DNA from: Styela clava
Taxonomy: Eukaryota > Chordata > Ascidiacea > Stolidobranchia > Styelidae
Length of the DNA: 64,000 nt
Assembly: GCF_964204865.1 (NCBI RefSeq)
Contig: NC_135252.1
Span: 11,243,383 to 11,307,382 of the forward strand
Direction: 5' to 3'
Each line of letters begins with the position of its first letter. The stretch's first letter is position 1. A program made the position numbers and the translations under genes. The notes below the pieces were generated by a model that did no database searches, was not told the DNA's origin, and was given only the letters and a program-made list of their open reading frames with translations. This document shows, piece by piece, positions 327 to 49,125 of the stretch.

Positions 327-3300
327 ATGAGAAAGATTTTCAAGACGAAATGCATCCTTATGTTTCTGGTTACCATCCATGTCTTTTACCCAGCCAATAT
401 AATGCAATTATGGACGATTGTGACAAGGTAAGTTAGCTGATGTGACATACATGTATCATGTAAGTGTTAATAGTTCTGACCGAAAGAGACTGCACTCAAC
501 AACTCAAGAAACAGGCTGCACAGTATGCATGTAAGTGAACTATTATGTCACGGTTGTTCTGAACCGTCTCAGTTTATATTGACTACCTTCTACAATGGTT
601 CATAGTCATTGGCATTATTTGCAACACACAGGTATCGATGTCCTCATCGAAACACATTCCATGACTCGAAAGTTATTTCACAAGCATTGCAAGATTTCAC
701 GACAAGCGATGCGAAATACAAATTGCCAGAAGATGACGACAGTTGTGAAGGTGAGTGTAACTTATGTTGACGTGCTTTGGCGGTAAAATGAGAAAAGGGT
801 TCAAGAAAACGTTGGTGTCATGACCTTGTACGCCGAACCAAAAATGAAATATAATTTTACATCGCGAAACAACCAATGTATGGGCAAGTAGAGAATTGAA
901 TCGGTCAAGTAAGCCATTTTATAAACTACCCACGACCACACCTGCCATGCACAAACCAGCTTTAATCAAAATTATTTATATTAACAGTGAGATCAATGGG
1001 ATGTTTCCAATCTTTGCCTAAACTATTTGTACCGGATGTTGTATCAATTCGTCTTACACCGAACAGATGTTTTAATTTCTGTAACGAAATGTAAGTAAAA
1101 TGACATCCAGATATATGTTGAAACTTATAATACAGTACTTTAGTATATAAATATTTTGTATCGCCAGTCTCATTTAATTCACATTTTATGAAAATCGTTA
1201 AATTATAGTCGTTTTTATTTCAACTGTACCGATCAAGCATACTACGTGCTTTCACTGATCAAGTAAACAAAAATACGCTGGAAGAGAAACTGGAATTTTT
1301 TTTTGTATATGTTTTTATGTGATAGATTGTCGTCATCCACTCCAATAGTGTAATAATAATATGTCAGTGCCATACAACAAATGTTTCATCTGATTTGAAA
1401 GAAATCGATAGGATTATTTCGAAATAATTAATTGTTGGACACAAAGTGAACAAACATATGGATCGTTTTGCCGGGTTGATTCTTGATTGTAACTGTTGGA
1501 AAGAATCGCTTTTCTACTCGACTGTTGTAACGAACGCTAATAAATTAACCGAACTTAAAGATGTAAGAAGTCGCTAAAAATGTAGGCTATTTCTTTCATT
1601 TTTCTGAATCCTACTTGACATGACATTTCTACCAAAATTTTGTTTTAACCCACGGAAACACTGTTTGCACTTTATTCTGTCATGCCTGATTGTCGACTTT
1701 ATCACTATCGGTAAACCCGTTCTCAACTTATAAATGCGCCCAAGTTTGTGCCCATATATATCTGAGAAATGCTTCGTTGTTTTTCAGAGGAATGCTGTAC
1801 GCTTCTTTGTACAATGGTCAAACGTGTTACTGTGGAGAAAACTTTTTAGGTGTTGCACTGCTCACAATGTCACAGGACTGTAAAATAAAATGTTCCGGCG
1901 ATGGATTTAAGTATTGCGGCGGGAAACAAAGTTCCCAAGTTTATATGATCACCAACTGCAACAAAGGTGATCCAAAATATATTTGGTTTAATACGATTAC
2001 TGAAATTTTGTAATAGCTATTTTAAAAAGCATATTATTGTATTGAGGTTATTGCCCTAAATATAAAATTTATCCAGTCTTGCATTGAAGTTATATTCCTT
2101 TGGAACGTAAATTACTATTGTAATTTTATCTCAAAACCCATTTGCAGTGATGAAAAATGAAATATTAGAAGGCTGTTTAGTCAGAACAAAGAATGATTTA
2201 TTCAATCAAGAAGAACCACTGGACAAAGATGATTGCATAAAGATATGCGGAAAGGCGGGATTCACTGTCGCAGTGCCGGCAAAGAAGTGTGTCTGTGGTT
2301 ATCGACAAAATGTGTAAGAATAGTCTGATAGTACTCCTATAGTTAGGATTACCCGGACTAACTCCGCCATAACCGAGACGTATGGTAAGCCTACGTATAG
2401 CCATGAAACCTTTGATGTATTTCACATGTAAAATACATTGTTTTAAAATTTAAATTTATAAGGTGCTGATTGTATTGACAGATAACTTTGTAATTGTCCT
2501 ATGATCCAGGATATACGAGTGGTTATGACCTTGCCCCGGGCAAAAACTCAAATAAATTTTACAGTTTTCTATAAATTTAACTCATTTTATAACAACATTG
2601 AATATTTCATTTAGGAAAACCAACAGTAAAGGACAGGCTTGTGTCCGGGGAACTCCGTACAGAACACTTGCCCCTGATTCCAAATGTGATAACAAGACAT
2701 TGCTTCCAGCTGGGACGAACCCTCCAATTGCCCTCGCTAGTTTCCCGGGATCTGGTAATACTTGGTTTCGTCAGATGATTGAAACAGCAACAGGTGTATA
2801 TACAGGAAGTGTATACGACGAAGAACTGATTTTCGCCCATGGTGAGTGTAGCGAATGAACTTTTCGAATCATTTATTGGACACGAAATGGACACATGGAT
2901 CGTTTTGTCATTTTGTATTTTTCTTCTTCTTGTGAAAAACAACCTTTTTCATTAACTACGGGATCAATGCTTTGAATTTTAAATTTCTGTGTGATAACGT
3001 ATTCAAAATAATAAAATTCGCACCGTGACGTGGGTTTCGAGACCGCATTTCAGCGACTGCTTTCTTGTTATTATTAATTGGAAACGAACAAATATTGGTT
3101 ATGCACCAAATCATATGAAAATATCTGAGATTGTTCAACCATTCACTATGATGAAATACAACAGTCAAGGCTGCAAGTTTGCATAGAATTCGTGTTTTAT
3201 TCTATTTCTTGTAACCGTATGACGTCGCGAGACTTAATAAAATGAGACAAAGAGAGCATATATGGCAATTATGTAATATCATTAACTTACGCGAAACACG

Positions 3301-4374
3301 AAAATATCGGAAAGTCAACAATTTTAAAGTCAATGGAGTGAATGAAAGATATAATGTGAACTATTTTTCGAGAAGGTCGTCTAAATTTCCCCAGATGAAC
3401 AACGACTTTTCAACTGTGCTTGGCAGTGTCTTTATTTGATTTAATCTTTAAATGTTCTATATATACTTCAAATTTATGGTGCATACATATGTATATATAT
3501 AAATATATGAAATCATTTTTGCAGGTTTCATCGGAGAACGCTTGCCTGCTGATTCTGGCAAAACAGTTGTTATTAAAGATCATGTTCTTCATTCGTTAGA
3601 TGCATTCAAATATAAATCAGCAATATTACTTATCCGTGATCCTTATGATGCTATTTTAGCAGAATACAACAGATTCAGGACATTAGGCCATGTTGCGTCT
3701 GTAAGTGACGAGATGTTGAAATCCAGAGGTGAGATAACATAACAGTAATGTTTTAAAAACTTCGAGATGTTCATATTTTCTTGTGTATTACTCACCTGAT
3801 GCATGCATCCTTACCACCGAATATTACGATGCAACATCAGTACGCCTTCACTGCATTATCACATATTTGATATATAATAATGTTAGCCCTCTTGAGTTTT
3901 TTTTCTGCAGATTTTCATTTATTTGTCAACCGGAAAGCAACTACATGGAAGAACACATATAGTAAAATTATCCGAAGAGTACCTCGACTGTTACCAGTTT
4001 ACTTCGAAGACAGTGTCAAGGACGCGGTAACGCAAATTCGTCGTATCTTGGATTTCTTACCGGAATCATCATTTATTCACGGACCGGACTTGGAGACCCG
4101 TCTCCAATGTTTGGAAGTGGATGTACACAGCAAATTTAAACGTCCAAAAAGAAGTTTGATTTTTGACCCTTTCTCCCAGGATTTGAAACGGAAGATTAAT
4201 GATAATATAAGAGGCCTCAGACAGGAGCTAGAAAGAGTTAATATTTCGACTATGCCGAAGTACGAAAGACAAGGCGTCGAGAAGAAATTCGGTGGAAAAT
4301 CATCTGATAGAGGACAACGTAACAGACAGTTACAGAAAATAAGAATAAACGCCAAAGACAAAAATGGGGCTTAA
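327..4374 (+). CDS. WSCD: WSC-domain sulfotransferase (WSCD family, sialate O-sulfotransferase type)
   Basis: Spliced model: join(327..427, 632..750, 988..1090, 1788..1966, 2148..2313, 2615..2841, 3525..3728, 3911..4374); 1563 nt, 520 aa, all GT-AG and in frame. Residues about 9-30 form a type II signal anchor, placing the catalytic part in the Golgi lumen. A full WSC domain follows (about 76-160, with CYCGE and CGGKQ). A second, shorter WSC-like segment has [12 protein letters not shown] and CVCGY. The sulfotransferase domain carries the 5'-phosphosulfate loop PGSGNTW (about 266-272) and the PAPS 3'-phosphate motif [10 protein letters not shown] (about 334-343). Family members sulfate sialic acid on glycans; that role is by homology. 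The length is slightly below the vertebrate proteins (roughly 570 aa) because the second WSC domain is reduced. The start is the first ATG before the anchor. The weakest splice sites are the GTGATC donor after 1966 and the exon 1 assignment. Confidence 0.88.
1431..1535. repeat. dispersed repeat family R430, partial copy in WSCD intron 3
   Basis: It shares the block TTGGACAC...GGATCGTTTTG...TCGCTTTTCT with the longer copies at 8030, 10805 and 56105. Only the first quarter is recognisable. Confidence 0.5.
2874..3000. repeat. dispersed repeat family R430, partial copy in WSCD intron 6
   Basis: Same opening block as the other copies (TTGGACACGAAATGG, GGATCGTTTTG), followed by the Thr/Ala-like TTAACTACNGGATCAATGCTTTGA segment that matches ACTGNACCAATTGCTTTGA in the long copies. 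Confidence 0.5.
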
Positions 4375-16831: not shown

Positions 16832-18433
16832 TCACGAAGAAAAATTTACTATCATGTTATCTAAAATAGATTTTTTAACACCGCGTGGAGTTTTGGAGTT
16901 GTTGAAAATTGACCAGCATTCTTCTTTTAATTTTTCTTTGACGCCGTCCGGAACGGATTTTTTCATTAATATTTCACGAAAATATGAGTCTGTCACAGAT
17001 TCATCAACAAAATTGACATTATTTTTTGTGTCCGGTAGTTTTTCCATAAATGTGTCTTTGACTCCCCGACCTTGTCTCGCATGATACACATTATTAGCGG
17101 TGTATGGTGTGTTGAAGAACAATACCGGCTTTTTTGATTTTTTCGAACTGTGCTGCTCGTCTTTTCGACCCACTTCTAGTAGGTAGAGAAGAAAGGAATC
17201 GTCAGATTTTGTTTCTACTGGCTCCTGATGCCGTAGTTTCTCTTTGTTATCCGTCTCTGGTTTAGAAAGTGGTCGATGATTTGCAATCATATCTTCTTCT
17301 GTTCTGACTTTGTCTTCGAGACTTTGCATCTTGAGGGCGAATCGTTGAACGATACCTTTTGATGAATCACTCGGTTCTTCCTTGCACGTAACGTGGTTGC
17401 ATTGCTGATTTTGTATTTCTTTGTCAATGATGATTTGTGGTTTGCTTTCTTTAGGGATCCCTTTATTTTGGTCGTGAGAGATATCATACTGATTTTCATT
17501 GCGAGATTGCTTTGAGGCAACGTCTTTTATCAATTTCCACCGTTCTTGGCTGTTTTGCGAAGGGAAGGGCAATAAGGGTTTTTGTATGTGTTCTGAATCT
17601 TTGTCTCTTGTCTGCCACATTAGTCGAATAGATTTGATATGCGAAGTTGGGGCGTTCGTCTCTTCACCAGCTGAAACTCCACATTGGAAATTAGTCTTCT
17701 GTTGTCCATCTTCAGTTGTGCTGCTTGTCACCTCGGATTTTTGTTCGAAAATATCATTGTCCATTTCATCTTCATGTTCTGAAATTGTGTCCAAATCTGG
17801 AGCAAATGGACCATCATCGTCAATTTCGTCAGATTCTTCGCTACATGATGTTGAATCATCAGAGGTGGTTGAGCAATCACTGTCGGTATCTGATGCATCG
17901 CTATAAAAACCATCGCTTTTTGTCGAAAAACCAAGAGAACTTTCTGAACTAGTATCATATTTGGGCTCTTTTTTGATTTCTTCTTGCGGATCTGTTTTGC
18001 AGATTACGTCAGATTGTGGTTGTTCTTTTAATACCGACATCATATTGAATATATTTGGAGTTCTTTCCTGCATCTCCAAAGTTTTATCTCTGTCGCATTT
18101 CATAGAGTTTGTGCCATTCTTTGTGCTACTTATGCTCCGAGTGCTCGTACCATTTACGTGGCAATATGATTCTTTTTCACTAGATATATCTCGCTTCACA
18201 TTAATACATTTTTTGTTTGCTTCGTTTAAAATAGTTTTTCTGCTGCTATTGTCAATAGAATATTTTTGCACGCCACAGAACGACGTTTGGTTTGGTGTAT
18301 TAAATGCAGTTTTATTTTGAGTTGGAGCCATGCCGAAATCTCTTTCCAAGATCCACTGTGAATCAACGACAAAAGTCGGTTCTTCTTTTCGTGAAAACAC
18401 AGCGTTTCGTACTGCCTTGTATGCACTTTTCAT
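16832..18433 (-). CDS. acidic, low-complexity protein of unknown function, 533 aa
   Basis: One uninterrupted ATG-to-stop frame of 534 codons, far longer than chance allows in this AT-rich DNA. No signal peptide or TM segment. The protein is hydrophilic and probably largely disordered. Residues about 160-225 form a Ser/Asp/Glu-rich tract (SDTDSDCSTTSDDSTSCSEE), typical of a CK2-phosphorylated or PEST-like region. The C-terminal third looks more ordered: KKPVLFFNTPY, then three spaced GVK motifs (GRGVKDTF, PDGVKEKL, PRGVKKSI). KPVLF fits the loose PP1-docking pattern [RK]x[VI]x[FW], and VNFVDESVTDSYF recalls the region after the PP1 site in PPP1R15 (GADD34/CReP). The WxxxARDRxRF block of that family is absent, so I leave the family open. 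The terminal exon of a longer gene is possible, but the ATG suggests a complete coding exon. Confidence 0.75.
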   Translation of the reverse strand: MKSAYKAVRNAVFSRKEEPTFVVDSQWILERDFGMAPTQNKTAFNTPNQTSFCGVQKYSIDNSSRKTILNEANKKCINVKRDISSEKESYCHVNGTSTRSISSTKNGTNSMKCDRDKTLEMQERTPNIFNMMSVLKEQPQSDVICKTDPQEEIKKEPKYDTSSESSLGFSTKSDGFYSDASDTDSDCSTTSDDSTSCSEESDEIDDDGPFAPDLDTISEHEDEMDNDIFEQKSEVTSSTTEDGQQKTNFQCGVSAGEETNAPTSHIKSIRLMWQTRDKDSEHIQKPLLPFPSQNSQERWKLIKDVASKQSRNENQYDISHDQNKGIPKESKPQIIIDKEIQNQQCNHVTCKEEPSDSSKGIVQRFALKMQSLEDKVRTEEDMIANHRPLSKPETDNKEKLRHQEPVETKSDDSFLLYLLEVGRKDEQHSSKKSKKPVLFFNTPYTANNVYHARQGRGVKDTFMEKLPDTKNNVNFVDESVTDSYFREILMKKSVPDGVKEKLKEECWSIFNNSKTPRGVKKSILDNMIVNFSS

Positions 18434-20463
18434 CGTCGATGCTTGTTGACGTGTTTATTCTAGGCCTGTATGTTGTTTCTAAAGAACAAAAAATAACAAA
18501 TTAGCTAAGTTAAAACACATTTCATTAATATAAATTTTATCAAAATAAATTCTGAAAACTCTAAATTATGCGTTTAGAGATTTGTTCAATTTCAGGGGAT
18601 AAACATATACGGTCTCGATAAAAGAACCGCTTTAATCCGGGTTTCTTATCAGCAACGGGAGCGTCTTATGAGATGTCGAGAGGAACTTGTTGGGAAATTT
18701 TAGATTATTAATACTTCTGATGGTTGCGTCATTGGATTTTGCTGTAGCTTCTTTATAAATATTATCCTTACTTGAATTTTGATGAAATAAACTATTATTA
18801 ATACCTCAAAACTTTTCAGTAATCCCAGCGTAACAAATTACCTTCAGCTGGTTTCGATTTCACCGCATGTCCCTTGTTTGTGTGTTGTTTTCTATTCCTA
18901 TCTACTACACTCCAGACCTGATACTAAATCCTACCTCATAACACTTGCTATGTGTATCAAAAATCTCCAATCACCATTCGACGTATCTAATATGTTAAGT
19001 CGTTTGAATATTTGATTTGAGCAAAAAATATATTTACGTGTGCCAATTTGCACTGATGTGCGAAATTCGGTGGATTTTGTTTCGACTGCCTCCAATGCAT
19101 TAACGATGATTCTCTTTGTAGCTCCAAAATCCATCCAGCTGTGCGGGTTCCTATTTTACGAAACTACTATATTATTTTGGAGGCTGATATTACAATCTAA
19201 TTGATTTTATAATATATACTCTTTTATGTTACCTTTGTCGCGTAGTGGAAAGCAATTCTTATTGTTTTATATTTTCTGAAGAACTGTGACTTGAAGTTTA
19301 AGTGCACAAAGTTTAACTAGTAAACTCCAAAATATCTAACAAAAGAAAACCTGAATATCGTTTTTTGGTATAAATGTGACGACAGGGAACTTTCTGTGCA
19401 ATCCCTGAGTTACAAGTCTATTTTTCCATAAAGTCCGAAAAAAAAACTTCCCCTCAAGAGATGTCTACTCTGTACTGAGTATTTACAGCAGACTGTTCGT
19501 TTGTCAGTCGCAAAGGCGTTTCCGATCGATCAAATTCTTAAGTTATAGTCGACGGTTGCATTTTTCAAGATCCTGTTCTATCCTACTATATAACATAAAT
19601 CCAGAATCCAATTTAAACTTGTGTGACTATTCAGTCACTGGAAAGAAATTTGGACCCGTTTGAAATTCTACGTCCTAATTCCACGAACAAAAAACTCGAA
19701 AAATGTGTGTTTTTGACATTTGCGATATTGCATTCGCCTGAGGCCAAAGAATATTATTCGTAATATCTCATGTCATATTTCATGTATGCTTCTTCGTATA
19801 ATGCACGTAGATTTTGATAGACCATAGATCGCATATACCATCCGGGTATATATTGCTTCATTTCTTACTACCTCAAGTGGATTTTGAGAGGCCTTTGTAA
19901 TTAAATCATCATAACATTGATAATTATACCTGCAGCGAATATACCACTGGCTGTTGACTAAACAAAATAACGCAGTGTTATAGGCAATTCTAAGAAAATT
20001 GCTCTGAGCTCTGTTTTAACAACTAATACAAAAGATTGTTGCCAGTTGGATGAGCGAATACACACGCGCCATCATAAAATATTGAGTATGAACCGTGCGT
20101 TTGACGGGCGGATGTGTAATGCGGTTTGGTGTTGACCTTGACTGATAGGCAACGTACTCTTTAATCTAATGTATCGAACTCCTTATTTCAGTTGTTGATA
20201 ATGAGAATTGTTTTCGAATAGTTTTAGACGCGATTCATCTAAGACCGGGATATAGGATTTATATAGATATTCAATATCAAATGCGAATGCCTAAATGATC
20301 TGTAATTCGCGAAGAATCGATCTCTGAATAGTTAATCGATTATTGCGGACACCATCCTGGAGATTGATATATTGACGCTGATAATCCGCGACGACGAGCC
20401 GTATACAATGATCCAAGGAATAATGTACAACAATATGTGTTATGTGACATCATAAATTACCAA
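18434..20463. other. intergenic, no gene seen
   Basis: This lies between the 5' end of the orphan gene and the 3' end of the polytopic membrane protein gene. Short open frames occur, the longest plausible being a minus-strand ATG frame at 19134, but without partner exons. No repeat ends were recognised. Confidence 0.4.
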
Positions 20464-24620: not shown

Positions 24621-26017
24621 ATTTTAATAACAAAATTAGTGCCGTAAAAATCGCAGTCGATCTTCCGAAAATTTCATAAAAGGGCGTTTCGAAACGGACG
24701 TCTGCTGTCACTTCTTGTAATACGGTTACGAATAGTTAGGCTGCTTTATCGAAATCATTCTATGCTTTTAATGGAGCGTCTCGCCTAGATTCGAAAACAG
24801 ACATGAGATATATTGTGTCCAATATATTCCTAAGTTGTGCAATGAATTATGAAAGGTACTTTGTTCACAACGTCGCAACAAAGTATGAGAAACAAGCGGA
24901 TTTATTCGAAGTTTACTACGAAAAACAATGTTCAATATAAACGGCTTTTGCAGATATTAGTAGCATCTTGCTTATTCGCTCGGCAATTTGTGAGTTTCAT
25001 TTTATTTTCTCTAATTGGTATAGCTATTTGTCCGTTTCATTTTGTCCGCCCAGTATCAGTTTATTCGAGTGATTTAAATGTACCGCAATGCTTGCCAGTT
25101 GCAACACGTGTCATCTTAATTTCATACTTTTTTCAACTGTAAAGTATGTATACGCATTGAATTTTCTACATTGCAACCATGATTTGTTATAAAAAAAAAA
25201 CACTGCTCGAAGTGTGCCATTTCGAAAAAGTTTCTGTTTCAATAATCTTGAAAGTATCTTGATTGGCTCCAACATCTTTGGTATTACAAGCTTGTAATGG
25301 CAACAGTTTGTATTTAATTCAGAAAAATAATTTATTTAGAGAATGTTTCATATTTTTGTTTTTTCAGTGCTATTGTAGAATAGTTTAGTATTCGGATACG
25401 GAGATTCCATACATAACCTATGTATACATTTTAGATTGCTGTCGAAGAAAGATACTTTTCATTAGCAAAAAACTCTATTTAAATACTATTTAAATGCTCC
25501 AAATTAGGCCTACGTCTCATTGTCATTGAAATTGCAAAAAAAATCAAGCACATTTTTCTTTCTGACAGATGTGCTTCACTACATCCAACCACACTAAATT
25601 TCCCAGTACTTCAATCAATGTTGCCTTAATTTTAGGTTATGATATTTAAAGAATGAAATTTTGAATCATATTTTCAGTCAAAAATAAGAGAAAATAAACT
25701 CATGAGCGAATCGTTCCACTTGAGCTCAGATATGAACATGCGTATATCAGCGGCAAACATAATTTTTTTTATGCATAATACTTTTTCTACTGCGAAATCA
25801 TATTACGCCTCTTGTTGAATGCACCAGAGGGCGATCGCGATCAGTAAATCAGAGGTTTTCGAATGTGTCGAACACCTGCGGGCTGCTGGTTTGTTTGGAT
25901 TTTATTCTTGTGAAACACACTAAGTCAGTTTTGTGGTTTACGTTTGCGTGACAGATATCAGTCGAAGTGAATGCGGGCGAAATTGGGGCTTTGTATCGAG
26001 GTAATGATTGCGTACAA
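24621..26017. other. upstream region of the IA-2 gene
   Basis: AT-rich. An ATG frame of 97 codons at 24849-25142 has no recognisable domain. The 5' UTR of IA-2, and any 5' UTR intron, should lie here. Confidence 0.4.
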
Positions 26018-28210
26018 ATGGCGTCGGTCTTATTCATTGTCCTGACATTACTGTCGGTTGCAGCCACCAGAGACAATGCCTTTTTGCATAAAAGATATGG
26101 CTGTAAGTTGGCTCCCAACATAATATGTACACCACCTGAACACTGTTTAGATGATGGTTTCGCGGGAAATTGTGAAGTATCACATAATAGTATTTGGAAA
26201 GATTTAACTGTGGCAGATCAACTGCGATTGCTGGAAGCTATCAGGGATCTCGAACTACAAGGATATGATTACAAGGATGTAGAAAATGCATTAAAATTTT
26301 CAAGTCCTACTAATCGTGCTATTTCAAAAGACTCAACTTTCAGTCTTGAGGATTATCTTACCGCCCTACAAATATTACGTCAAGATGAATCATTGAAGTT
26401 TGGGCAACCAAATGGAAATAATAGAGAAATCAAGTACAACTTGGAGCCAGAAAATAACTATAGGCAAGAATATCGTAGATCACAACCTCAAAGTTTGTCA
26501 GGTGATGCAGAGATTCGAAAAATGAAAGAAAAAGAACTTATTGAAGAAGCACGACAGATTCTCAGAAAAAGTGGAATGACCTTCGATGATCTCACAAGTC
26601 AAGAAATGAAAGGACTGGTGAAAATATTGGCCAAACATTTAATCAAAAATTCTGAACATAATGATAATAACAAAAATAATAGTGTGGAAGACGATGAAAA
26701 AGTGCCGAAGAATGAAAATGTTGAACATCAACAGCGTATCCAAAAAAGCGATATTGTGTCTAAATTCGAACCAGTCGCGTTTCCGGTGGAACCAAGTGAC
26801 AGTGGGATTAATTCTGCTGTGATCGCTTCTGATAAAGAAACTGCTAAGACTGACACTGAAATTGCTGATTCAGATCCTGCTCCGATTCATGAGGCTTCAA
26901 CAAATCAAAGACTAAAGAACAAAAATAAAACTCTTTACATTGTTATTATTGTTGTTGGAGCAACAGTTCTACTGATTATTATTGTCACTATTCTCAGCTG
27001 TGCTATTCATGCTTATCGAACCAAAGGCAAAGGTCATAGAAAATTCGTCGGTGCGACAGATAATGATGAATTAGGAGATGATTATCAGGAGCTTTGTCGT
27101 CAACACTATGCCACAAAAAATTCAGAACGTACTGAAAATGCTAAAGAAGTAATGAATGATTTATCAGGTGTACAAGAACCACTAACCACACGTTCTTATC
27201 CATTAACAAAACCAAATGAAGGTGAAACTAAACCCAGCATGCCTGTGCATTCTATTGGTCATGGAGAAGCAACACGAAATTCAAGTGTTTCTTCATCGTC
27301 TTGGAGTGAGGAACCTGTCACAGCCAGTCTAGATATTTCTACGGGACATGCAGTTCTTTCATACATGGAAGATCATCTTAATAATAAAGATCGTCTTGAT
27401 AAAGAATGGGAAGATATATGTGGATATGAAGCTGACAGCACAACAACAACAATTGCCATCACACCTCAAAACAGCAGAAAGAATCGATCTTTGGTTGCTT
27501 TACCTTATGATAACAACAGAATCAAATTAAATTCCAAGAACAATCATTTACAGAGTGACTACATTAATGCCAGTTCTATTATTGACAATGATCCCAGAAG
27601 ACCATTGTACATAGCTGGTCAAGGACCTTTGGCTTCTACAATTCCTGACTTCTGGCAAATGATGTGGGAAAATGGTTGTGTAGCAATTGTGATGTTGACC
27701 CCACTTGTCGAGGAAGGTGTCAATCAATGTGCTCGATATTGGCCTGATGAAGGCTCATGCACATACCATAATTTTGAAATTCATTTGGTTTCGGAACACA
27801 TATGGTGTGAAGATTATTTGGTTCGCAGTTTGTATTTGAAACATTTACCAAGCGGTGAAACAAGAACAGTGACTCAGTTCCATTTCTTGTCATGGCCAAA
27901 TGATCGTGTACCATCGACTGCTAAGCCTCTGTTGGAACTAAGAAGAAAAGTAACAAAATGCTATAAGGGACACAATGCTCCAGTACTTGTACATTGCAGT
28001 GATGGAGTCGGACGAACAGGTACTTACATTTTATTAGATCTGGTCATTGATAGAATGTTGAAAGGTGCAAAAGAAATTGATATAGCTGCAACATTGGAAC
28101 ATATACGCGATCAAAGAGTAGGGATGGTTCATACAAAAGAACAATTTGAATTTGCTTTGACTGCTGTGGCTGAAGAGGTAAATGCCATTTTAAAAGCATT
28201 ACTTCGCTGA
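26018..28210 (+). CDS. PTPRN: IA-2/phogrin: receptor-type protein tyrosine phosphatase-like, catalytically dead
   Basis: One intronless frame, 2193 nt, 730 aa, complete from signal peptide ([16 protein letters not shown]) to the family's C-terminal ending NAILKAL. The frame is open upstream but has no earlier ATG. The N-terminal RESP18-like part (about 22-100) has [22 protein letters not shown] and LELQGYDY. A mostly polar ectodomain follows, then a TM helix (about 306-332). The PTP domain runs from about 455 to 728, with SDYINAS and QGPLAST-type motifs. The signature loop is [10 protein letters not shown] (659-668): the usual Ala is Asp. The WPD loop reads WPN (626-628). Both changes predict loss of phosphatase activity, as in known IA-2 proteins. 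IA-2 sits in dense-core vesicle membranes of neuroendocrine cells and regulates hormone storage and secretion. Orthologs that I know have many introns, so the single exon is odd. Confidence 0.95.
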
Positions 28211-37059: not shown

Positions 37060-40000
37060 TTAAGGAAGGGGAACAACAACTTCAACATAGTTAACAGGAA
37101 AGAATCCCAACGATCCGTTAAGCATTCCTTCAAACCAATTTTCATCTATCTGTGAAGTGAGTATGATTTCGTCACCTTCCTGAAAACCAAGTTCTCCTTC
37201 ATTTTCAGCTTCAAAATCAAATAATGCTTTACAGCACGGCTGATCAGCTGGATGTAGAAAAATAAAAACATACATTAGCAAAATTAAAGTATAAACTGTT
37301 ACTGGCATATTTGTTTAATAAGTAAGACTATTTCATCACTATTTCATATGTAAGCTTATGCAAATAGATGGACTATCAATATTAAAGTTGCAAGCGCTGA
37401 TTTCCAAAGAGCTACACATGAAATTATTAGTGAATTTGTGGTCAGAATAGGACTCAAGGTATTTCAGGGCAATAAGGTCAACAGAATTTCTTTAAAAAAG
37501 CTGTGATGCATGATTTCGTTAATCAACTTGAACTTGCTCAAATATTCTCTTGTACAAACGATACCATTTCATTTTGGCTAGATTAAAACTACATTCGTAT
37601 CAAAAGTTTTCAATCGTTGTGAGACACTGCAGGAATAGCTTAATTTTTGGACTCAATAGCACCACCTGGAGGAAGTATTTCAAAGCTACAAAAAATACAA
37701 TATATGATAGTTTCGGTTTGTTATATCCATTGAATGCATGCTTGAAAAATGGTGTACAACAATTGATTCAGTTATTCAAAAACTAATAAATTGAAGGTGG
37801 GCTCAACATTTGGCACACGGTGGTGAGTGGTGACTGATGTGAGTGTCAACAATACGAGTACCATATCGTGAATGGTGAATCACCTGTTTTTTTAAAACCA
37901 AGGTTATGAGCACTCAATCGAATGCGTAAAGAGTGCTGAAAATTGAATTGCTACTGCAATTTTTTTTTAAGAACCCTAGTTTGGGGTGTTTAACCCCACA
38001 AAAATGATTATATTATATAAGAGAGGGTTTCTGGAACACAACTGATATATGACTGGTATTTGACTATTTGTGCCAACTTGTCAATAGAATGCCTACAGTA
38101 TTTTTCCTCCTATTTAGTTGATGTGTACACTTGACGACTCCCAGTCTCCCATGTCAATTGATACCTACCTTTTGGTTTAGGTTTAGTTGCAGGCGAGGGT
38201 GCACTATGCCTCGGACTTGCTTGCGGGGGAGAAACGAGAGTTGATTCACCTTGAGAACTGATTGAACTCCTTGTTTGTAATGTCTTCTTTGTTCTCTCCT
38301 GAATATTTTAAAATATACTTATAAAGAGGGGAAAGAATGAAACCCAGTGATAAATTATGATTACCTCATTTATTTTAATTCCAATTTCCTATTTGAAAAA
38401 AAAAATGCTCGATTATCAAATTATGCTACATCGGTGAGATTTTCAATCGATGTCACTTTTTTGGCACAGCTTAGACATAACTACATCAATTGCCAGCATA
38501 AAGCTGTTACCTAGCTCGATTCTTATCATATAAATCATAAAGAACATGAGAAGCATCTACTGTAAAATATAACTACTAAATCAAAAACATAGTCCTGTAA
38601 GAAGCAAGTGCTATGCATAAATATTTAAAATGATATAGATAAGGATAGTGGAGATGGGCATGAATGTCCTAAATCAGGGGTGATCAGGCAAACTGCAGCC
38701 CGCAAGCCAAATGCGGCCTACAAGAAAAAATTGTGCGGCCCGTGGAGAATGACGTGCGTCCTACGAAAAGAGCTTTTAATTGAGTTTAATCTGGTATGTG
38801 CGAGTGATTCCAATCCCTTTTTGTCATGGGCGGACACCCAGGGGTGTGGAGAGAGCCCTCCTGTATTAAAGGTTGCACACCCTTGTCCTGCTAAATCAGG
38901 GTCGTCCAACCTTTTTGGCCGACGGGCCATATTTTGTTTACTATTAATTGCGCGGGCCACATGGTAATTATGTTCTAGTTTTGCTACACTGACTAAAAGT
39001 TAATGAAAAAACAAACAAAACCCTTACACCAAACTTTTTCAATAATAAGAACAATAAAAAAAACGAAGATACAGTAAAGTCAACCAAGTTTTTTCTACAA
39101 GTAGACATTTTAGTGTGAAGTTTGGCACTGTTTTTCGCTAACAAGTTTGTCAATATTTGCTGAGATGGACGATGTAGCAATGCGAAGCGAATTTTCCATA
39201 TGACTGTCAGAAATTAGTGATCTCACAGGGGATTTGACATGGTTCATCTGTGAAAAAACTTGCTTGTACAAGTAAGTGCTGCCAAATAATGAGGTCATTA
39301 AAACTGCCCAAGGGTGTAAGCGACTACTTATGTATCGATATCTTCCAGTTGGTTTCTATCCAAAATGGCACTCATGGCTCGTTTGAAAGGGCCAGCAGAG
39401 CGTATTTCAGGAAAATGTACAAATTGTTTGTATCAAATCTTCATATTAACTACATCACTCGAAAAATAGAAGTTTTACTCCTTTTTTTATTTAATTCCGA
39501 AAATACAGCGCGGACCACTCGGAACTCCTTGGCGGGCCACATGTGGCCCGCGGGCCACGGGTTGGACGACCCTGTGCTAAATGAATCAAATCCATTAAAA
39601 TTGATTTTAAATTTTTTGATTTTAGGAATAATTCAGAATAGTTTTGATTGGAATATTAGAAATTTAAGCAATTGACGTAAAAATCAAATCAAAGGGGCCT
39701 TGCCTTGATTTCTGAACACTGAAAAACTAAAAATGACATGACATGACCAAATTTAGAATTTAATCGATATTCCATATTCAAAATAGCAAATTATAGTATT
39801 TAGTGATTGGATTGTTACAGTGAAGTAATTACATTGGGTCAGTGTACTAGTATCAAACCACTACAAGTTGTAAGGTATGCTAGAAGTCAAAAAAGTAGAA
39901 ATTTTAAATAAAATTGAGGCTTTTACCTTCCTAGGACCACTATTTATTTCATCAATCTTCCTCTGTAAATTTTCTTGAAGTGATTCTAATATATCGGCTG

Positions 40001-43000
40001 ATTGTCGATGAAATTCGAGTTGTGATTCTACCAGTGTAGCAAGTTGACTGACTTGTTCCACCTGAAGCAAACATATCAATTCGTTCAAAAAGCCTTTTCG
40101 AGGGCACATAATTAGTAATTAATGTACGAGTATGGTAAAGGAGAAAGATAAACAATTACCGAAAGTGATGTTTTCTAACCCATATTCTATATCAGTAACA
40201 CCTATTATTCACCAACAAGATTTATACTAAACAATATGATCAAGCATGTAATATTTTGATATAATTTCTTCCATTAGATATGGGGTTTTAAGTTTTACAA
40301 AACACATGAACATTTTACAAATGCCCTAAAAACTTTTATTAACCACATCGCATGTATTCGAAATAAAGCAAATCGGAATTCATAACCAATTTTCAATGTT
40401 TACAGCCTATAGCCACACACATTTATATATTCTATGAATGACAGGGGTGGGCAAAATTTTTTAGTACAAGAGCCGCATGAAGCAAGTCAGAAATATGTGA
40501 GAGCCGCATAATTTATGAAATTATTAATATTAGAGTTAACTAAATCATTTTGCATTGCAACTGTTACATTGGTACTAATTCTCGCGATGCGTCTTTGTGT
40601 AGTGCGGCAGGAAACCAGCGTTTGGTTATTAGTCGCTTCTTATTGTTGGAATTCAAGACTGCGGCAGCATCAGCAACAAAATCACAGTCAGTGTATAGCA
40701 CGAGAAATATTCCATGATATAACTAAACTAGCTTCAGCTACCGCTTAATAAATTTCAAAAAACTGTTACACTACAGTTCATCTTAGTTTGGATATAATCA
40801 ATGCTAGCGAGAAGAGCCGCACTAAATCTTTAGCAAGCCGCATGCGGCTCGCGAGCTGCGGTTTGCCCACCATTGATCTATGCAAACAACCCTAATCAAA
40901 CAAAATGATCTTCAATATAGCCTACATAACATCAATATTCATTTGATCCTAATTCAAACAAGAACAAATATCGCAAATTAGATGAATCAAACCTACATTC
41001 TATATTTGAGTCTATTTTATGATTCAAATCATTGAGACTAAAGTCAAAAAAAGCTAGAAGATTGCAGCATTCATTCGAAAACCAGTTTTTCTATTGTAAA
41101 ACAAAAACAAGCATGATCTATAGTACAATTTATCGAACTGCAATAGTTCAATTGTTTTTCAAATTTGCATTCATTATTTACTTGATTTAGAATAGTCTAT
41201 TCTTGTAGTAAAATTACAACAAAAGCTAATTTTACTTCAAAAACAACAAATTTTATTTCAAAATATATGTTCCTTCCAAATATATATTTTTTCAATCTAC
41301 GAAACAACCTTATTTTTCAAACATCCTCTATTTTGAAATGCACTAGGATGTTGCTGAATCAATTTATGGTACTCCTGAAGTATGTGCACCAAGATGTCGC
41401 ACAACCTCAACCGTAATCTGGTACACAACCTGAGTTCACGTTGTGCGAATACTTCAGGAGGTCCCAATTTATTATGTATTTGTGAGTTGGTGAATACATG
41501 AATCACAATCCAGAAATTCAAAACAGTACAAGTTTCATAAAATGTCATAGCAATATGCAGGGTGTTCATAAAGTCTTGCAATATTGAATTATGTAAGAGA
41601 ACTTTTGATTTGTTTTTGCAACTGACGGTGGATAAATAATAATGGTGCACCGTGCATTTAATGAAGCCTATGCATCTGAAAACAAAAATAACTGGCTCAC
41701 TAATCCCATACCCGAAATGAACTGGTAACTGGACGAGAGGCCACAGTTTACCACATTATTAACCCTTTCCGTGCGGTGGGCACGTATACGTACCCACGAC
41801 AAAACTCGCTAGATTGCGGCGGGTACGTTGATGTACTCCACTGTTTTATTTAGCAATCGGTCGCAAACTGTTGGTCTAGTTTTTCCGGGTTTTAGTTTAT
41901 TGATAAGAAGTCTTCTTCGAGATTAACATAAGTGACGGTAAATCTCGCTTTCGTTTACCATGGGAATTTTATTTGCGGCGAAACGAGGGAGTGTTTTTGA
42001 AATTTATGCAAATTTCGGTGTTTTTTGGGTGGTAATAGAAGACATATTATCCCTTCCATCTACCAAAGTATTTTGAGTTAGATAACGAAATTGCTACAGC
42101 AATATTATGCTATTGTTTGCCAACCAAGAAGCGGTAACAGTAAATGACTTAGCGAATATTTCTATTTTTTATCACGGTTTAAAGTTTCAACACCCAAGAA
42201 AAAAAATGCCTTTTTTCTATCCGGTTTGTGACTCAGGCCACCCCTTTTGAAAAAAAAATTGTTTTCAATCGCTAATCGCAAGCTCATTAAATAAGCTTTC
42301 CAAGGAGCCGTCAGTGGGCAGCAGAGGATCATTACTTTTTCGTTAGTCGATCGATTAGTTGTGGGGGTACAAATGCATAAAGTCGGCGTAGCAAATACGA
42401 TTATTTAATAAAAAATAAAAATCGCATGGAAAGGGTTAAACTGTCTCATCTGATTTGAATGAAACAAACCAGGTTAAGTTATATTGAGAACTGGCTTCAT
42501 ACCAATTTCAAAATTGTAACAGGACTATATGAAAACCCTGCAATCAATAATAAAAATACACTTACATCACCAGACAGCAAATTAAACATACTGCTGTCGG
42601 CAAGATCTAACGATTCTTGCAGTTTCTCTTCAGCTTGTCTTAATTCATCCGGTGGAACTTTACCTCCTAAATCACACAATTGTTAGAAATCCAAAACCAA
42701 TCAAAAACAGAAAAGTCACTAAGGCAAGGAGTAAGTCAAAGCATTAAAGTGTAATCAAGAAATCCTAACAAATCATAAGAAAAACTATATTAATTTTCAC
42801 TAAGAAAACCATTTTTTTCTACTCCAATCCACATCTACCTCATTATTTAGCAATTCAAACATAGACTTATCAGCCAGATCGTAAGATTCTGCTAATTTCT
42901 CTTCAGCAAGGTAGAGTTGATTTCTTGAAGTTTTTTCACCTTTTTGATATAATGAATTTAATAACTAACATCATTATTCAAATTACTTGATAAGATTTTA

Positions 43001-46000
43001 AACTATGAAAAATATTCAAGTTCAATGCATGACTAAAATCACAGTATACAATATGAGTGAGTAACAGTCACTAGCATCCTGCCTGGCAAAGTCGAAAATG
43101 AATTTGAATGAAGTCATAAAATGAATTTGATATTGCAAGTGTTTTGGTATAGTAGAACACAATAGATTAATAGATGATGTATTGATTGCAGTTTCGCTTT
43201 GAGAATTGAAGGAAATAGCGTGATTCTAGGTTTCAAGATCAAAACCGATAAGATACAATCTTTATGAATTTTGCATACAAAATCGAACGATAGTATACTT
43301 CGTCCAATCTGACCCATATTTTACACATCATAGTTAATGGTAATTTGAACAGCGATGGTTGGTTTTGACATATATCAGTGGTGTACATTTTTTGGGAAAT
43401 TCCAATCATTTCATCAAATAAAAGCCAGAGCAAAACTTACCCTTTTTCCTCTTGTAATCATAGTCAAGGCGTCTTCCGGATAATTTTTTTCGATGATGCT
43501 AATAAAAAAAACAGAAAATAAAGCGTGAAATAAATATCAAAGTAAATACCATAGCATACACTGGCATTTTTTCTGTCCTATCCTCACAATTGTCAAACTG
43601 AATAGTAAAGAAAATGCTGTCAAAGTAACATGCAGCTTGTTGACACCTCCCTAAGGTGAAGCTACGTTTTTATTGAGATCTGGAGCATATTATGAAATGT
43701 TTAAATAACCAAAGAAGAGGTATTTCAATTGGGAAAGTACAATGTACGCTTGTGAAATTAAACTCCTGGTAATATTTGCTACTTGAGTTTTATTAGGTCC
43801 AGTGGAAAAAACTATGTAAAATGATAGTCCAGTGCCATTTAAACTTGAGGAAATGGTGAAAAATTATCTTGAATAATGCAATATATAACAAAGAGCGTTG
43901 AATAGAAGTTTATAGGAATATCTTAATAAACAAAATTGTATGGACAACAATCCTTTCCCATAAACACTTGAGTCATGACATGGAAGCTCGCACATAAGTT
44001 GATTTTAGCAAAAATTTTGTTATGATAATAAAACAAATCAGATTCCTATATATAAGTTTTCGCAATTGCAATTTCAGTAAGTGTCCAAATAAGTTGCCTA
44101 ATATAATGTGTGAATAAAGTTTGACTTCCATACTACACTTCATTATTATTAAAATCAATAGTCATTCACTAGAAATCTTATTGATTCATGTAGCGAGCGA
44201 AACCAATGTACGTAACTTATTCTCTTGTCGTTGATGACGTGAAAGTACATGACTTGACATGAGTTAAACAAACTAATCTTTAGGTTGCATTTACATATCA
44301 AAGTACATCAGTCAAAGGTTATTTATAAAAAAAACTCTCTGACTGGACAAGTTAGAAAAACTACCGTATATAACATGGAGTACCGGTATTATCAAACTGT
44401 TTTTAATGCTGGTACTATGTATTGATATTTGATGTATCAGTAAATAAACAATGGATTTGTGATGCATATGAATTTCATATATTGACGTTAAACGATATAC
44501 ATCTGATTTTGTCACAATAAGTAGCCTAACCTTTCAATTTAAATATTCAGTATGAGCATCATTTATTAAATAGAAATGTCTATAACTTTTTGACAATATA
44601 TACATTGAGGACAATAAACAAGTTTATTTTAATAACAAGTTGTTCAGACAAAACTATACAAATTTTATGTTAATAAAAGTTTCAATGTGGTATTTACATA
44701 TTTCATACATTTTATTCCATTCACAGGACATCACGGAATATAGGGCGAACATTTAAAGAGTGTTCATTTAATGTTTGAAATTAAAAATTTGGAAAGATTA
44801 AATAAGATAGAAAAATAAATTCATAACATGTATAATCCTGACTTCAGTAATTCCCTAGATCTTTAATTGCTTAGATCAGTCATTCCCAATTGATTTGTCA
44901 GAAAGTTGTAAACCAACGTGAATAAAACCACAGTTATGTACTACTAGTTATGGTCTCTAGTCTCTACTAGAAACAATGACGTAAAATGTGCTCTATCAAG
45001 AATTTTTTCTCATATGGATAAGCTAATCAAAAATAAACAGTCCTATAATATTATACTTACCATGACTTCTTTAATATCTTTATCATAAAGTTGTTGTAAA
45101 GGATCAATAAAATTTTGTTTTACATTGATATCAAGTGAATCTTTAATCTCAGACATTTGTGTTAAAGCTTCCCCAACTTCGACCAAAGCCGATCCTGTGA
45201 AGAAAATTCCAATTTTTTCAAAATATTCAAACTCAAACAAAAACAATCTTAGAATTTGAGGTTTCATTTTTAGTACTAAACTCGGGTTAAAGCTTCCCCA
45301 ACTCCGACCAAAGCCGATCCTGTGAAGAAAATTCCAAGTTTATCAAAATATTCAAATTCAAACAAAATCAATCTTAGAATTTGAGGTTTCATTTTTAGTA
45401 CTAAACTCGGGAAAGGGTTTGGGAAATTTATAATTTTCACATAAAATTACTTGAAATCAAACAAATCGCAATGAACCCAAAGTAGAGCAAGCTTCAAAAC
45501 ATACTAAATCTTCTCCACAGGTTGTCAAAATTCCCATAAATTGGGAATATCATATTACACCTGTTAGTTCACCCACATATTGTTTTGTTTGTTTCCCAAG
45601 ACAAAGATACCAATGAATAAAGGAAGTCACATGACTTCATAAAGTAACACATACTAAATGAATCATCCTAACGCATAAACAGATAATTATAAACCATAAG
45701 CTATTTCAATGATGACATCACAAGCAGCAACTGAGAATGCAGGTTGATATTCAGTACATGAAACAATATTTGATTTTGGAATGTTTCACATACTTGTATA
45801 TAGTTATCCATTCCAAAGCATTGAAATTTGAACGACTAATACAACAACTTTGTATTGTTTCAAAAAATGTGAATAAATAATATTTACTTCTAGTGCTTTT
45901 CAATAATGAGTTTACTTATGTTTAAGAGATGATTATGATTAAGAGATTATGAATCACCGCAAGCATATATATAATATAAACCTATAATATAAATATTTCT

Positions 46001-49000
46001 ACGTAAAACAAAAACAGTCAACAATGACAAAAATCAAATTGTAGCACTTTAAAACCAAGACAATGATATCTAATTAAACAAAAGATGGGATAATCAATCT
46101 TATTTATAATGTAACTTATTATTTCAATCAATATTCTAATAAATTGATGAAAACATTGTGCTTTCACATATTAGCCTCAATCAAATGTTCTGAACATACA
46201 TACATACAGAGATGGCCACAACCGAATAATTTAGTATTTTGAATACATTCGGATTTCTGATTCAACAATATTTTTGAATATGAAATATCTTCTGATCGTT
46301 TCATAATCCACAGAAATTGCACTATTACTATGAATTCATAGTAGTTGGATTTTGGGATAGTAGATTAGTTGAAGTAAATATTGGATTGATTAATTTTCCG
46401 TATTCAAATATTCAGAAGTAGCAATCATATTTTGTCTGATCATCAGATGTAATATGCCTAACATAACAAATTTTCGTGCCAATTTGCTATGCGATCTTAG
46501 TGACTTTAGTATTAACCCAACTCTAACCCAACGATGACAGGGTTGGAAACTGAATTCTATGAGACTGTCTTTATGAGATTAACGCATACCAAGGCGGCAC
46601 CAAATTTCTATATGAAAACCTTTTATTTATTCCTAAAATCAATAATTCACTAAATTCAATATAACATATTATTCGGTTTATGATTTGTATGTTGTAGAAA
46701 CATTCACACCAGTGAGAGGTATGAACACTTCCAAACTTAAAAAGGGAAACTGATGTAATTGTGATTCATACATGTCAAATCTTGAAGAGGTTGCTATATG
46801 CTAATATCGGATTGACAATATTAAATTGGTAGGCCAAGTGTCACACATCACACTTATTACATTCAGTACATTACATTTGATGTTACATCGTTGTGTTCCT
46901 CAGTATGGATAAATCAACAAAATACAATAAAACAAAGGATAATTATTAATCAGTTAGACCCACGTTACTCAATAAGCAAAATAATGAATATGTTTGAGCA
47001 TTACCAAAGTGAGAATCAGTTCCTAATTCACCGCCATGTTTTTGCATACATTCGCCCAGTGTACCTTCTGGTTGAGGATATTTGATGTCTCTTTGCTTTC
47101 CCTGTAAAACATATTGCAAAGTTTGAAGTCTTTTTATCTCTACTTTCCATGAAACAATTATTGTGATCATCATTTTCAGGAAACATACATTCCAGTCATA
47201 GTCAAGTGCTGCAATATAAAAAATTGGGCAAAGAGGTAGCATAGTATTATAATGAACACTGAACTAAATCATAGTTGGAAATATTCTATGACCAATACTA
47301 ACCAATATAATATGCCAGAACTTATGAATTAATAGGTAATAAAATAAATCAGATGGTCACTACAGGCATCTGCTTGCAGTAAAACTAATGATGCACAAAG
47401 CAATAAAAATATGTGAAGAAACTCCCGAGGGACCACATGGAAACACATTATTATCATTCAGATTGCTAACCTGACATCCAAGTATCCCCTGAAATGAAGT
47501 AAACAATATGAAGCCTATGATGGGAATTATATCCCAGAAATACTAAAAAAATAGCAATGAAAAACCGCCATGTTCACTGATATGATGTCACAATATTACA
47601 AAATTTGAAATTGATGAGGTAAAATGTGTTTTATTCGTTTAACCCAATCAATATAAATAGTCGGGCATTGGCCATAAATGAATGGTACTCAAACAGAATA
47701 TGACATTGGAAAAATTTACCTGTAACTTTGATGCTGTATTCATCATGCTCAATTTAGCCCTTGATCCGGGGTTGGGTTGTAAATATTCTTTAGTAAACAG
47801 CATCACATCTTGTATGGCTTTGCTTGTTATGTCAACTTTCTGAGCAAGGAAATGGAATATTTCATAGGTAAGCCCATGTGACTGGTGCCACAGTCATTAC
47901 ATTGCACAATAAAAACAGTCAGTAATTTGATGACTTCCTTTTGTCGATGAAACAGAAGAAATATCAGGAACGAACTACGAGAGTAGAATCAATTGACCAA
48001 ACCAATAGATTGTTTCATCAAGTTCTCGTAGAGAATGAGGCATTATTATCATTTTATCACAACTTACGTTACAAGGTCTTAGCCTTGAATCGTGAAAGCT
48101 GCAAACTCTTAACAATCATACTCAATAGTTAAGGATAACTTGGAAGGTAGCAAGGTAAATAAACGTAAAAAAATTAGGTACCCTCTCCATTTCCACAAAT
48201 TCTCTATCCATTGTAGTTTTGTCATTCTCATTTCCAATCTTCTCTGACATATACTGTAAAAAATAACTAATTTTAAGTTAATTTTAACAATAGATTTTTA
48301 ATAAATATGCTCTTATATGCATCAGAACTTTATAAATCTTAGTCATACAATGTATGAATGAAAAAATAAAATCATCAATCGTAAATTATACGACAAATAA
48401 ATCAATAAAGAACTCAAAATTATTAATGAAAACCAGATTGAAAAAATTATTTGAAACAAGAAATTTTTTATGATGACAGTCAATAAGAGCTCACTCTTAC
48501 TAGTAAGGTTATTGTACATTTATATCATCAAGTAGAACTGAGATAATTTTAAAAAAACAGCAACATAGAGACATAACATTTCTTAAGGATATTAGTGTAT
48601 ATTTATTGGTACAAGATAATGGAATTGTTAAAAGCATCTCTATTTATGATATGAGTACACAATGCACAAAACAAAAGAGAGAATTGACATGAATTGAAGA
48701 TCAAAATAATGTAACCATTATTATGAAGTGAAGCAAGAAAAAAATAAAATAAAAGAACAAATTACTCATGACTGTAATTGAAAAAAAAGAACTAATGTAT
48801 AACCGAAAAAGAGGAAAATCTTAAAAACAGCATGACTTTCAAAGTACATAACAAACAATAGTATGCTCCTAAAACAAGTCTGAATCATGTATACATTGTG
48901 TCTTACACATTAAGTTATTTAAATTTAGGAAAACTGTGAATAAAAAAAAACTGATCAAAGGTCAACCACTTCCATGCCTATGCAAATTATACCATATAGG

Positions 49001-49125
49001 GCTATTTGGTAATGCATGTATAATTTTGCAGCATCCAATGTAATAGGCATTGCAACATCTCCATCCAGAATTACAAAATATTAAGTTTTACTGACCTGAC
49101 TCGCTTTGTGAAATTGTTTAATCAT
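37060..49125 (-). CDS. SH3GL: endophilin A (N-BAR and SH3 domain protein)
   Basis: Spliced model: complement(join(37060..37247, 38169..38298, 39927..40061, 42566..42666, 43441..43498, 45061..45194, 47005..47101, 47720..47839, 48182..48253, 49096..49125)); 1065 nt, 354 aa, against about 352 in vertebrates. N-terminal helix H0 is [10 protein letters not shown]. The BAR domain follows, with [51 protein letters not shown] and [15 protein letters not shown] Ser/Pro-rich linker comes next, then the SH3 domain ([39 protein letters not shown]). Endophilin bends membranes and recruits dynamin and synaptojanin in synaptic vesicle endocytosis (known family role). Exon 42839..42939 can replace 42566..42666, and exon 49350..49403 offers another N-terminus; these are listed separately. 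The true start remains uncertain because the frame is open upstream of 49125 to the acceptor at 49149. Confidence 0.93.
38675..38885. mobile_element. probable hAT MITE next to the 38897 element
   Basis: The ends are CAGGGGTGATCAGGCAAAC and GCACACCCTTG, imperfect inverted repeats of hAT style with a GC-rich subterminal GCGGCC. The flanks resemble each other (TCCTAAAT and TCCTGCTAAAT) but are not an exact duplication. It sits in the same endophilin intron as the next element, only 11 bp away. Confidence 0.45.
38897..39574 (-). mobile_element. hAT element with a transposase remnant, 678 bp
   Basis: Perfect 15-bp terminal inverted repeats (CAGGGTCGTCCAACC / GGTTGGACGACCCTG) and an exact 8-bp target duplication TGCTAAAT at 38889-38896 and 39575-39582. 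On the minus strand, 39298 to 39113 encodes [17 protein letters not shown], then [17 protein letters not shown] and [12 protein letters not shown], matching the C-terminal dimerisation region of hAT transposases of the Charlie/GTF2IRD2-like kind. The frame is broken upstream, so it is a fossil internal-deletion copy inside an endophilin intron. Confidence 0.88.
40442..40875. mobile_element. hAT-type MITE, 434 bp
   Basis: The ends are CAGGGGTGGGCAAA and TTTGCCCACCATTG, with GAGCCGCATG / GCATGCGGCTCG subterminal inverted repeats. The flanks ATGAATGA and ATCTATGC match at only 5 of 8, suggesting an old insertion. It lies in an endophilin intron. Confidence 0.7.
41368..41464. mobile_element. short MITE of the GGTACTCC family, 97 bp
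   Basis: The ends are GGTACTCCTGAAGTATG and TACTTCAGGAGGTCC, flanked by an exact 8-bp duplication CAATTTAT (41360-41367 and 41465-41472). It shares GAAGTATGTGCACCAAGATG with the copy at 58329-58564. It lies in an endophilin intron. Confidence 0.8.
41763..42435. mobile_element. piggyBac-type MITE, 673 bp
   Basis: It begins CCCTTTCCGTGCG and ends CGCATGGAAAGGG, and is flanked on both sides by TTAA (41759-41762, 42436-42439), the signature target of piggyBac transposons. No transposase frame. It lies about 130 bp from endophilin exon 42566..42666, on its downstream side. Confidence 0.85.
42839..42939 (-). CDS. SH3GL: alternative BAR-domain exon of endophilin, mutually exclusive with 42566-42666
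   Basis: It encodes, after the split Gly codon, [15 protein letters not shown] then [18 protein letters not shown]. The neighbouring exon at 42566-42666 encodes [15 protein letters not shown] then [18 protein letters not shown]. Both are exactly 101 nt, entered in phase 1 and left in phase 0, and share AEEKL, the DLAD core, SMF and LL. The 42566 exon is closer to the vertebrate sequence (PDEELRQAMEKFEES). If both were included, the second would be read out of frame and reach TAA at its ninth codon. The acceptor (ATATCAAAAAG) lacks a good pyrimidine tract, and the donor is GTAGAT, so this exon may be used in restricted tissues. Confidence 0.85.
45162..45411. repeat. 125-bp tandem duplication across an endophilin splice acceptor
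   Basis: Two copies in tandem, about 45162-45286 and 45287-45411. Both contain TTAAAGCTTCCCCAACT, GACCAAAGCCGATCCTGTG and TTTCATTTTTAGTACTAAAC. The real exon 45061..45194 begins inside the first copy. The second copy holds a duplicate acceptor (exon side at 45319) and about 32 nt of exon sequence. Confidence 0.9.

Follow-up and report, generated by a model that had tools for sequence, protein, structure and literature searches.

A predicted pair of mutually exclusive exons for the BAR-domain tip in an endophilin A gene

Endophilin A proteins bend membranes and contribute to the endocytosis of synaptic vesicles as well as to clathrin-independent receptor uptake. Several splice variants are reported for each of the human endophilin A proteins (PMC12457278). 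Tissue-specific splicing is further described as altering the N-BAR domain of endophilin B1 (SH3GLB1/Bif-1), in its b and c isoforms; unlike the exchange of homologous exons in an endophilin A gene considered here, these isoforms arise by the addition of microexons in a B-type endophilin (PMC5891588). Among invertebrate endophilin A genes, that of Daphnia is alternatively spliced at exon 8, but this is a case of exon skipping rather than of an exclusive pair, and the place of that exon in the protein is not given (PMC7318467). Equal length, equal phase, the same class of splice sites, homology and the absence of in-frame stops constitute published criteria for the prediction of mutually exclusive exon pairs, and on the fly X chromosome just 90 of 16,180 exons spliced in other ways displayed these pair features (PMC3228551). 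In human, criteria of this kind gave 6,541 candidates, of which 1,399 were confirmed, some of the remainder having lacked data (PMC5740500). One known safeguard of such exons is a frame shift coupled to nonsense-mediated decay (PMC9741552, PMC5740500).

The DNA analysed here, a window of 64,000 nucleotides, contains a complete endophilin A gene with an N-BAR and an SH3 domain, which is distributed over ten exon positions from 49125 down to 37060 on the minus strand. The exon chain was rebuilt from tblastn pieces and splice borders, with a human endophilin A1 sequence as the query:

49096..49125, minus strand: E1, putative coding start, 10 residues, 5' end uncertain (tblastn pieces, splice borders)
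48182..48253, minus strand: E2 (tblastn pieces, splice borders)
47720..47839, minus strand: E3 (tblastn pieces, splice borders)
47005..47101, minus strand: E4 (tblastn pieces, splice borders)
45061..45194, minus strand: E5 (tblastn pieces, splice borders)
43441..43498, minus strand: E6, constant upstream exon whose 3' end encodes the basic KRKK cluster (tblastn, splice borders)
42839..42939, minus strand: E7a, alternative exon 7, divergent copy, 34 residues, with the first G in common with E6 (open frame, AG/GT borders)
42667..42838, minus strand: intron between E7a and E7b, 172 nt (direct reading)
42566..42666, minus strand: E7b, alternative exon 7, canonical copy, 34 residues, with the first G in common with E6 (length, phase, identities to human A1)
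39927..40061, minus strand: E8, constant downstream exon, remainder of BAR helix 3 (tblastn, splice borders)
38169..38298, minus strand: E9, linker between BAR and SH3 (frame and splice borders alone, without a tblastn match of its own)
37060..37247, minus strand: E10, SH3 domain and stop codon (tblastn, splice borders, profile)

Judged by eye, the first exon may start slightly further upstream than 49125, which bears on the N-terminal amphipathic helix H0. Joining of the exons with either version of exon 7 yields an intact frame of 354 residues followed by a stop. Profile searches recovered the BAR domain (PF03114) in both predicted isoforms, with 227 bits (3.3e-67) for that containing E7a and 239 bits (6.5e-71) for that containing E7b, as well as the SH3_1 domain at about 4e-12 in each, in the order N-BAR, linker and C-terminal SH3. 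Among proteins of solved structure, to which this comparison is confined, all six matches of the E7a version under an E-value of 0.001 and the best six of the 19 listed for the E7b version are SH3GL2 or SH3GL3; no endophilin B chain is among these matches. A spliced query of 98 residues, searched against the genome from which the window derives (376.6 Mb, 379 contigs) with all five candidates scored, recovered no second gene copy or retrocopy, and its four matches at E-values up to 10 are four exons of the endophilin A gene itself. Two further BAR-domain matches lie on another contig of this genome (C5:21371550-21372881) and presumably belong to another BAR gene.

The window and the genome hold several other features. 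On the plus strand, an uninterrupted frame of 752 residues at 25952-28210 contains a full tyrosine-phosphatase domain (2.6e-72), and from its look we take it to be an intronless receptor-type relative of PTPRN/IA-2; at 1690-4374 a WSC domain (8.6e-10) is followed by sulfotransferase-like frames, an arrangement that to us recalls the WSCD proteins, and the frames of 167 and 100 residues within this region have no Pfam match. A 540-residue frame at 16832-18454 on the minus strand likewise has no Pfam match, its C-terminal part presumably being akin to PPP1R15-type proteins, as judged by eye. Two endophilin introns, at 39600-38700 and 40870-40450 on the minus strand, include stretches rich in 'tggcccgc' or 'gcggctc', which we presume from inspection by eye to resemble hAT-type repeats. 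A dispersed repeat occupies 42400-42547 on the minus strand, beginning some 19 nt past the donor of E7b; of its genome matches 40 were scored from 399 candidates, and 39 of these are partial copies, the remaining one being the window itself. On contig C9 a cellulose-synthase-like frame (PF03552 8.6e-7, PF13632 1.9e-16; L009:7033-7854) lies about 1.8 kb from a glycosyl hydrolase family 6 frame on the same strand (9.9e-11; L009:9690-9971), a pairing that is a mark of tunicates and suggests a tunicate genome.

The two versions of exon 7 had been picked out in an initial annotation of this DNA as alternative encodings of one BAR-domain segment. Direct reading bore out the coordinates given there: each exon is 101 nt long, starts in phase 1, ends in phase 0, is bordered by AG and GT, and contains no in-frame stop; the intervening intron, given as 170 nt, measures 172 nt. 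As adjacent internal exons of equal length and equal phase with compatible GT-AG sites, the two display the combination of features from which mutually exclusive pairs are predicted. The shared elements AEEKL, DLAD, SMF and LL that had been pointed out are present in both peptides, which are identical at 19 of 34 residues, with 61 of 101 nucleotides identical in the underlying DNA. In tblastn searches of the 64-kb window either peptide recovered its partner at E = 7e-8, the next best match outside the pair being at E = 0.16. When the E7a peptide was shuffled 200,000 times, the observed BLOSUM score was never reached, and local alignment of the two exons at the DNA level gave a score of 46 against a shuffle mean of 14.8, with none of 300 shuffles reaching the observed value. 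Judged by these comparisons the similarity is beyond chance, and the two exons can be regarded as encoding homologous peptides.

Comparison with the human proteins identifies E7b as the canonical version and E7a as the divergent copy, E7a being far less similar to them at its start. Thus, E7b is identical to human A1 at 7/11 of residues 1-11 and 13/20 of residues 12-31 (6/11 and 12/20 for A3), while the corresponding values for E7a are 2/11 and 11/20 (1/11 and 11/20 for A3); the helix part of E7a is hence nearly as similar to the human proteins as that of E7b. Five residues are common to E7a and E7b and occur in neither human protein, and a single residue is shared by E7a with a human protein against E7b. 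These few positions, taken without other invertebrate sequences, weakly hint that the exon duplication postdates the split from vertebrates. The duplication itself appears to be old, because synonymous divergence is high (dS 1.0 by NG86; dN 0.43 and dS 0.75 by LWL85; maximum likelihood gave an unusable dS of 29 and YN00 no value) and the introns flanking E7a and E7b retain no residual similarity to each other (p 0.86 and 0.79), for which reason the borders of the duplicated unit are unreadable. No relative was confirmed among 113 pattern matches in viral contigs and 173 in genome contigs, as expected for an animal gene.

The reading frame bears on how the two exons might be used. When both are included, a TAA is encountered at the ninth codon of E7b, as had been claimed; this is codon 213 and lies 342 nt before the last junction. 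Skipping of both exons, a case that the initial annotation had left aside, also shifts the frame, and the stop then falls at codon 207, which precedes the last junction by 158 nt. Under the usual distance rule for nonsense-mediated decay, which derives from mammals, both stops would qualify. Together, the frame, the homology and the domain profiles support the earlier proposal of a frame-locked alternative pair in the BAR-encoding part of an endophilin A gene that is itself intact. It is probable that E7a and E7b form a mutually exclusive exon pair that tunes the tip of the BAR domain, with the frame and nonsense-mediated decay as the safeguard. According to this proposal, an old tandem duplication of exon 7 of endophilin A gave rise to E7a and E7b; the spliceosome would link E6 to one of the two and the chosen exon to E8, while messages with both exons or with neither would lose the frame, run into an early stop and be cleared by decay. 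Because the mis-spliced messages carry such stops and would be removed, only two proteins would be expected, namely the canonical protein specified by E7b and an isoform specified by E7a, in which helix 3 is largely unchanged and the distal tip of the BAR crescent differs.

The same stop upon double inclusion, 342 nt before the last junction, also suits a scenario in which E7a is mainly a regulatory poison exon, whose inclusion together with E7b would send the message to decay and lower the level of endophilin. The 172-nt intron could be spliced, and no structure was found that would bar the joining of E7a to E7b. However, a pure poison exon needs neither a BAR-like helix nor an open frame into E8, both of which E7a keeps, and these retained features leave room for decay as a side effect of a coding exon; we therefore consider this scenario very unlikely. 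It is also conceivable that the pair is real and that the choice is enforced by other means than frame and decay, i.e. by docking and selector pairing between introns, by an intron too short for splicing or by a distant branch point. Structural exclusion of this kind is known from other pairs (PMC6071210), as are distant branch points from exons 4a/4b of OGDH (PMC7969005). At this locus, the competing base-pairing for which the initial annotation had suggested inspecting the intron between the exons did not stand out: 4 to 17 of 20 shuffles equalled the best duplexes in a scan of intron 6, of the intron separating the two exons and, within the 2,504-nt intron that follows, of the first 500 and last 300 nt, and no inverted repeats occur in 42300-43100. 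Nor was short-intron exclusion found, as a length of 172 nt suffices for splicing; moreover, the sites are of the GT-AG class and TTTCTAAC lies close before the E7b acceptor. Enforcement by such devices thus appears extremely improbable.

Rfam models at gathering thresholds had no match within the window. Eight types of regulator motif examined in five intron regions gave nothing significant among the 40 tests, the lowest p value (0.05, from 300 shuffles) belonging to YCAY within the 200 nt that precede E7a, with 8 occurrences against 4.6 expected. The splice sites themselves differ. Among the ten acceptors checked, that of E7a (ATATCAAAAAG) is alone in having an A at -3, and its longest pyrimidine run is 3, as against 4 to 8 in the others, although its overall pyrimidine count (12/21) is comparable to that of E7b (11/21). 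The donor of E7a matches the consensus at 6 of 9 positions and that of E7b at 7 of 9, while the predicted energy of pairing with U1 is -6.6 for E7a against -4.9 for E7b, the weakest of ten. Hence, E7a looks weaker than E7b at the acceptor only. Duplicated alternative exons of which one has poorer recognition sequences are also described for exons 3/Ab of U2AF1, in that case a splicing factor gene, and the abstract of that report contrasts the poorer recognition sequences with the expression of the corresponding isoform (PMC5224494). Given this precedent, weak sites alone are no proof of disuse. On the favoured reading, E7a would be a regulated choice, specific to a tissue or stage, and the one with the weaker acceptor.

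Whether E7a is a functional exon or a decaying copy is best addressed by the distribution of its differences from E7b, which is uneven. Amino-acid identity between the two is 3/11 over codons 1-11, 16/20 over codons 12-31 and 0/3 over codons 32-34. The nucleotide differences amount to 18/33 in codons 1-11 and 17/60 in codons 12-31 (p 0.015), and of the residues that E7b has in common with both human endophilins compared, E7a keeps 1/6 in the tip part and 10/11 in the helix part (p 0.005), both p values being optimistic since the split into codons 1-11, 12-31 and 32-34 was set after viewing the alignment, with codons 32-34 left out. Over codons 12-31 dN/dS is 0.24 with a dS of 1.13, the 95% bootstrap interval for this ratio extending from 0 to 1.34 and 4% of the 1,000 replicates lying at or above 1. 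For the whole exon the interval is 0 to 1.41, with 10% of replicates at or above 1; in both cases replicates with saturated dS were scored as 0, a choice that favours constraint. When 17 changes, as observed, were placed neutrally in codons 12-31, none of 20,000 simulations retained 16 of the 20 residues, and for the whole exon a single one of 20,000 was both open and as similar to its partner as is observed. The helix part of E7a thus bears signs of constraint. In codons 1-11 dN is 0.90 and dS 1.33, and an identity of 3/11 is reached in 6,298 of 20,000 neutral simulations; this segment of E7a looks to be neutral or freely changed.

It may be argued that E7a is the dead remnant of an old duplication, no longer included in messages, whose frame has stayed open by luck because the exon is short. 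At this divergence the frame indeed survives in about one of four neutral simulations (5,029 and 5,562 of 20,000 in two runs), the acceptor of E7a is weak and its first 11 codons are near neutral. The helix part could likewise have survived by chance if few changes fell on the E7a branch: with just 7 to 9 of them on that branch, a neutral copy keeps 16 of the 20 residues with a probability of 0.19 to 0.03. Decay, however, should strike the tip and helix parts alike, which is at odds with the retention of almost all common residues in the helix part and loss of most in the tip part, as well as with the simulations described above. Furthermore, E7a has no indel, and both its frame and its GT-AG borders are intact. 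A young non-functional copy within the same gene presents a different picture: at 45161-45411 on the minus strand two copies of a 125-bp unit, with 96% matches, carry the 3' end of intron 4, acceptor included, together with the opening bases of E5, and the upstream copy runs, by eye, into a TAG. The uneven conservation is accordingly more readily explained by a swapped tip than by decay of the copy, and we regard a relic as unlikely and the use of E7a in mature messages as the favoured reading.

The exon 7 slot corresponds to residues 175-208 of endophilin A1 (in the chain numbering of 1zww, which agrees with the endophilin A1 sequence used as the query) and follows directly upon the basic KKKR cluster at 171-174, here KRKK. 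In endophilin A1 we take this cluster to mark the distal tips of the BAR dimer, and the placement of the exchanged segment is based on alignment to the solved endophilin chains, this position of KKKR and an analogy with pacsin. As the slot lies immediately after the KRKK of the tip, the exchanged start probably spans the turn that connects helix 2 with helix 3, together with the first turns of the latter. Just behind the cluster VPPDELRQ in E7b is replaced by TSRNQLYL in E7a; among its first 11 residues E7b has two prolines and two acidic residues and lacks Ser and Thr, while E7a lacks proline and has a single acidic residue, two Ser/Thr (in T-S-R) and one Y-L. The initial annotation had anticipated a change in the membrane-binding or dimer surface. 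Its expectation of an altered surface would hold mainly for the distal tip, and a change at the dimer interface was ranked behind this and appears less likely because 10 of the 11 common residues of the helix part are kept.

Some indication of what a changed tip might do comes from pacsin-2, where the tip loop between helices 2 and 3 binds filamin A, the phosphosite T181 in the tip inhibits oligomerisation and the tips join contacts between dimers, and from small-angle X-ray scattering, which in endophilin mapped the SH3 domains to the tips (PMC5487894). The pacsin loop is the matching site in another BAR-family protein, but it belongs to an F-BAR protein and is controlled by phosphorylation and partner binding rather than by exon choice (PMC5487894). 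As these observations concern the tips, we tentatively suggest, as an admittedly improbable extension of the exon-pair proposal, that the E7a isoform is a tip-switched endophilin with an altered tip-to-tip lattice, SH3-tip contact or membrane insertion, and with a phosphorylatable site in the tip, such that one gene might specify two endophilins differing in curvature or scaffolding strength by choice of exon. The changed tip would alter the contact of the dimer with the membrane, with other dimers or with the SH3 domain, whose reported location is near the tips; the new phosphorylatable T-S-R in E7a may mediate this. If the proposal holds, this natural exon swap would amount to an experiment in which the role of the BAR tip is separated from those of the dimer core, of H0 and of the SH3 domain. 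A single animal endophilin A gene would, moreover, have been diversified by splicing, humans instead possessing SH3GL1, SH3GL2 and SH3GL3.

Among the matches listed in a search of the open-access literature, there is no description of an exclusive exon pair in endophilin A, in agreement with the initial annotation, whose author knew of no described alternative version of this segment; supplements, subscription journals and genome-browser annotation lie outside the scope of that search, and the pair may therefore be annotated somewhere without discussion. Tandem exon pairs as such are a known kind, and it is for this gene and this place that a description was not found. The human and fly catalogues of tandem-duplicated mutually exclusive exons contain, as here, adjacent homologous exons that encode the same stretch of a folded domain in alternative forms (PMC9741552, PMC5740500), and the human genes with tandem exons are enriched for the glutamatergic synapse (PMC9741552). 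Unlike those entries, the present pair is predicted from sequence, and neither the BAR domain nor BIN1 is mentioned in the main text of the one (PMC9741552), nor SH3GL or endophilin in that of the other (PMC5740500). A further parallel is offered by exon 5 of SNAP25: there the pair belongs to a vertebrate SNARE protein, whereas here it is predicted for a BAR protein of a probable tunicate, but in SNAP25 too an ancient exon duplication provided a presynaptic protein with two mutually exclusive variants (PMC2581893).
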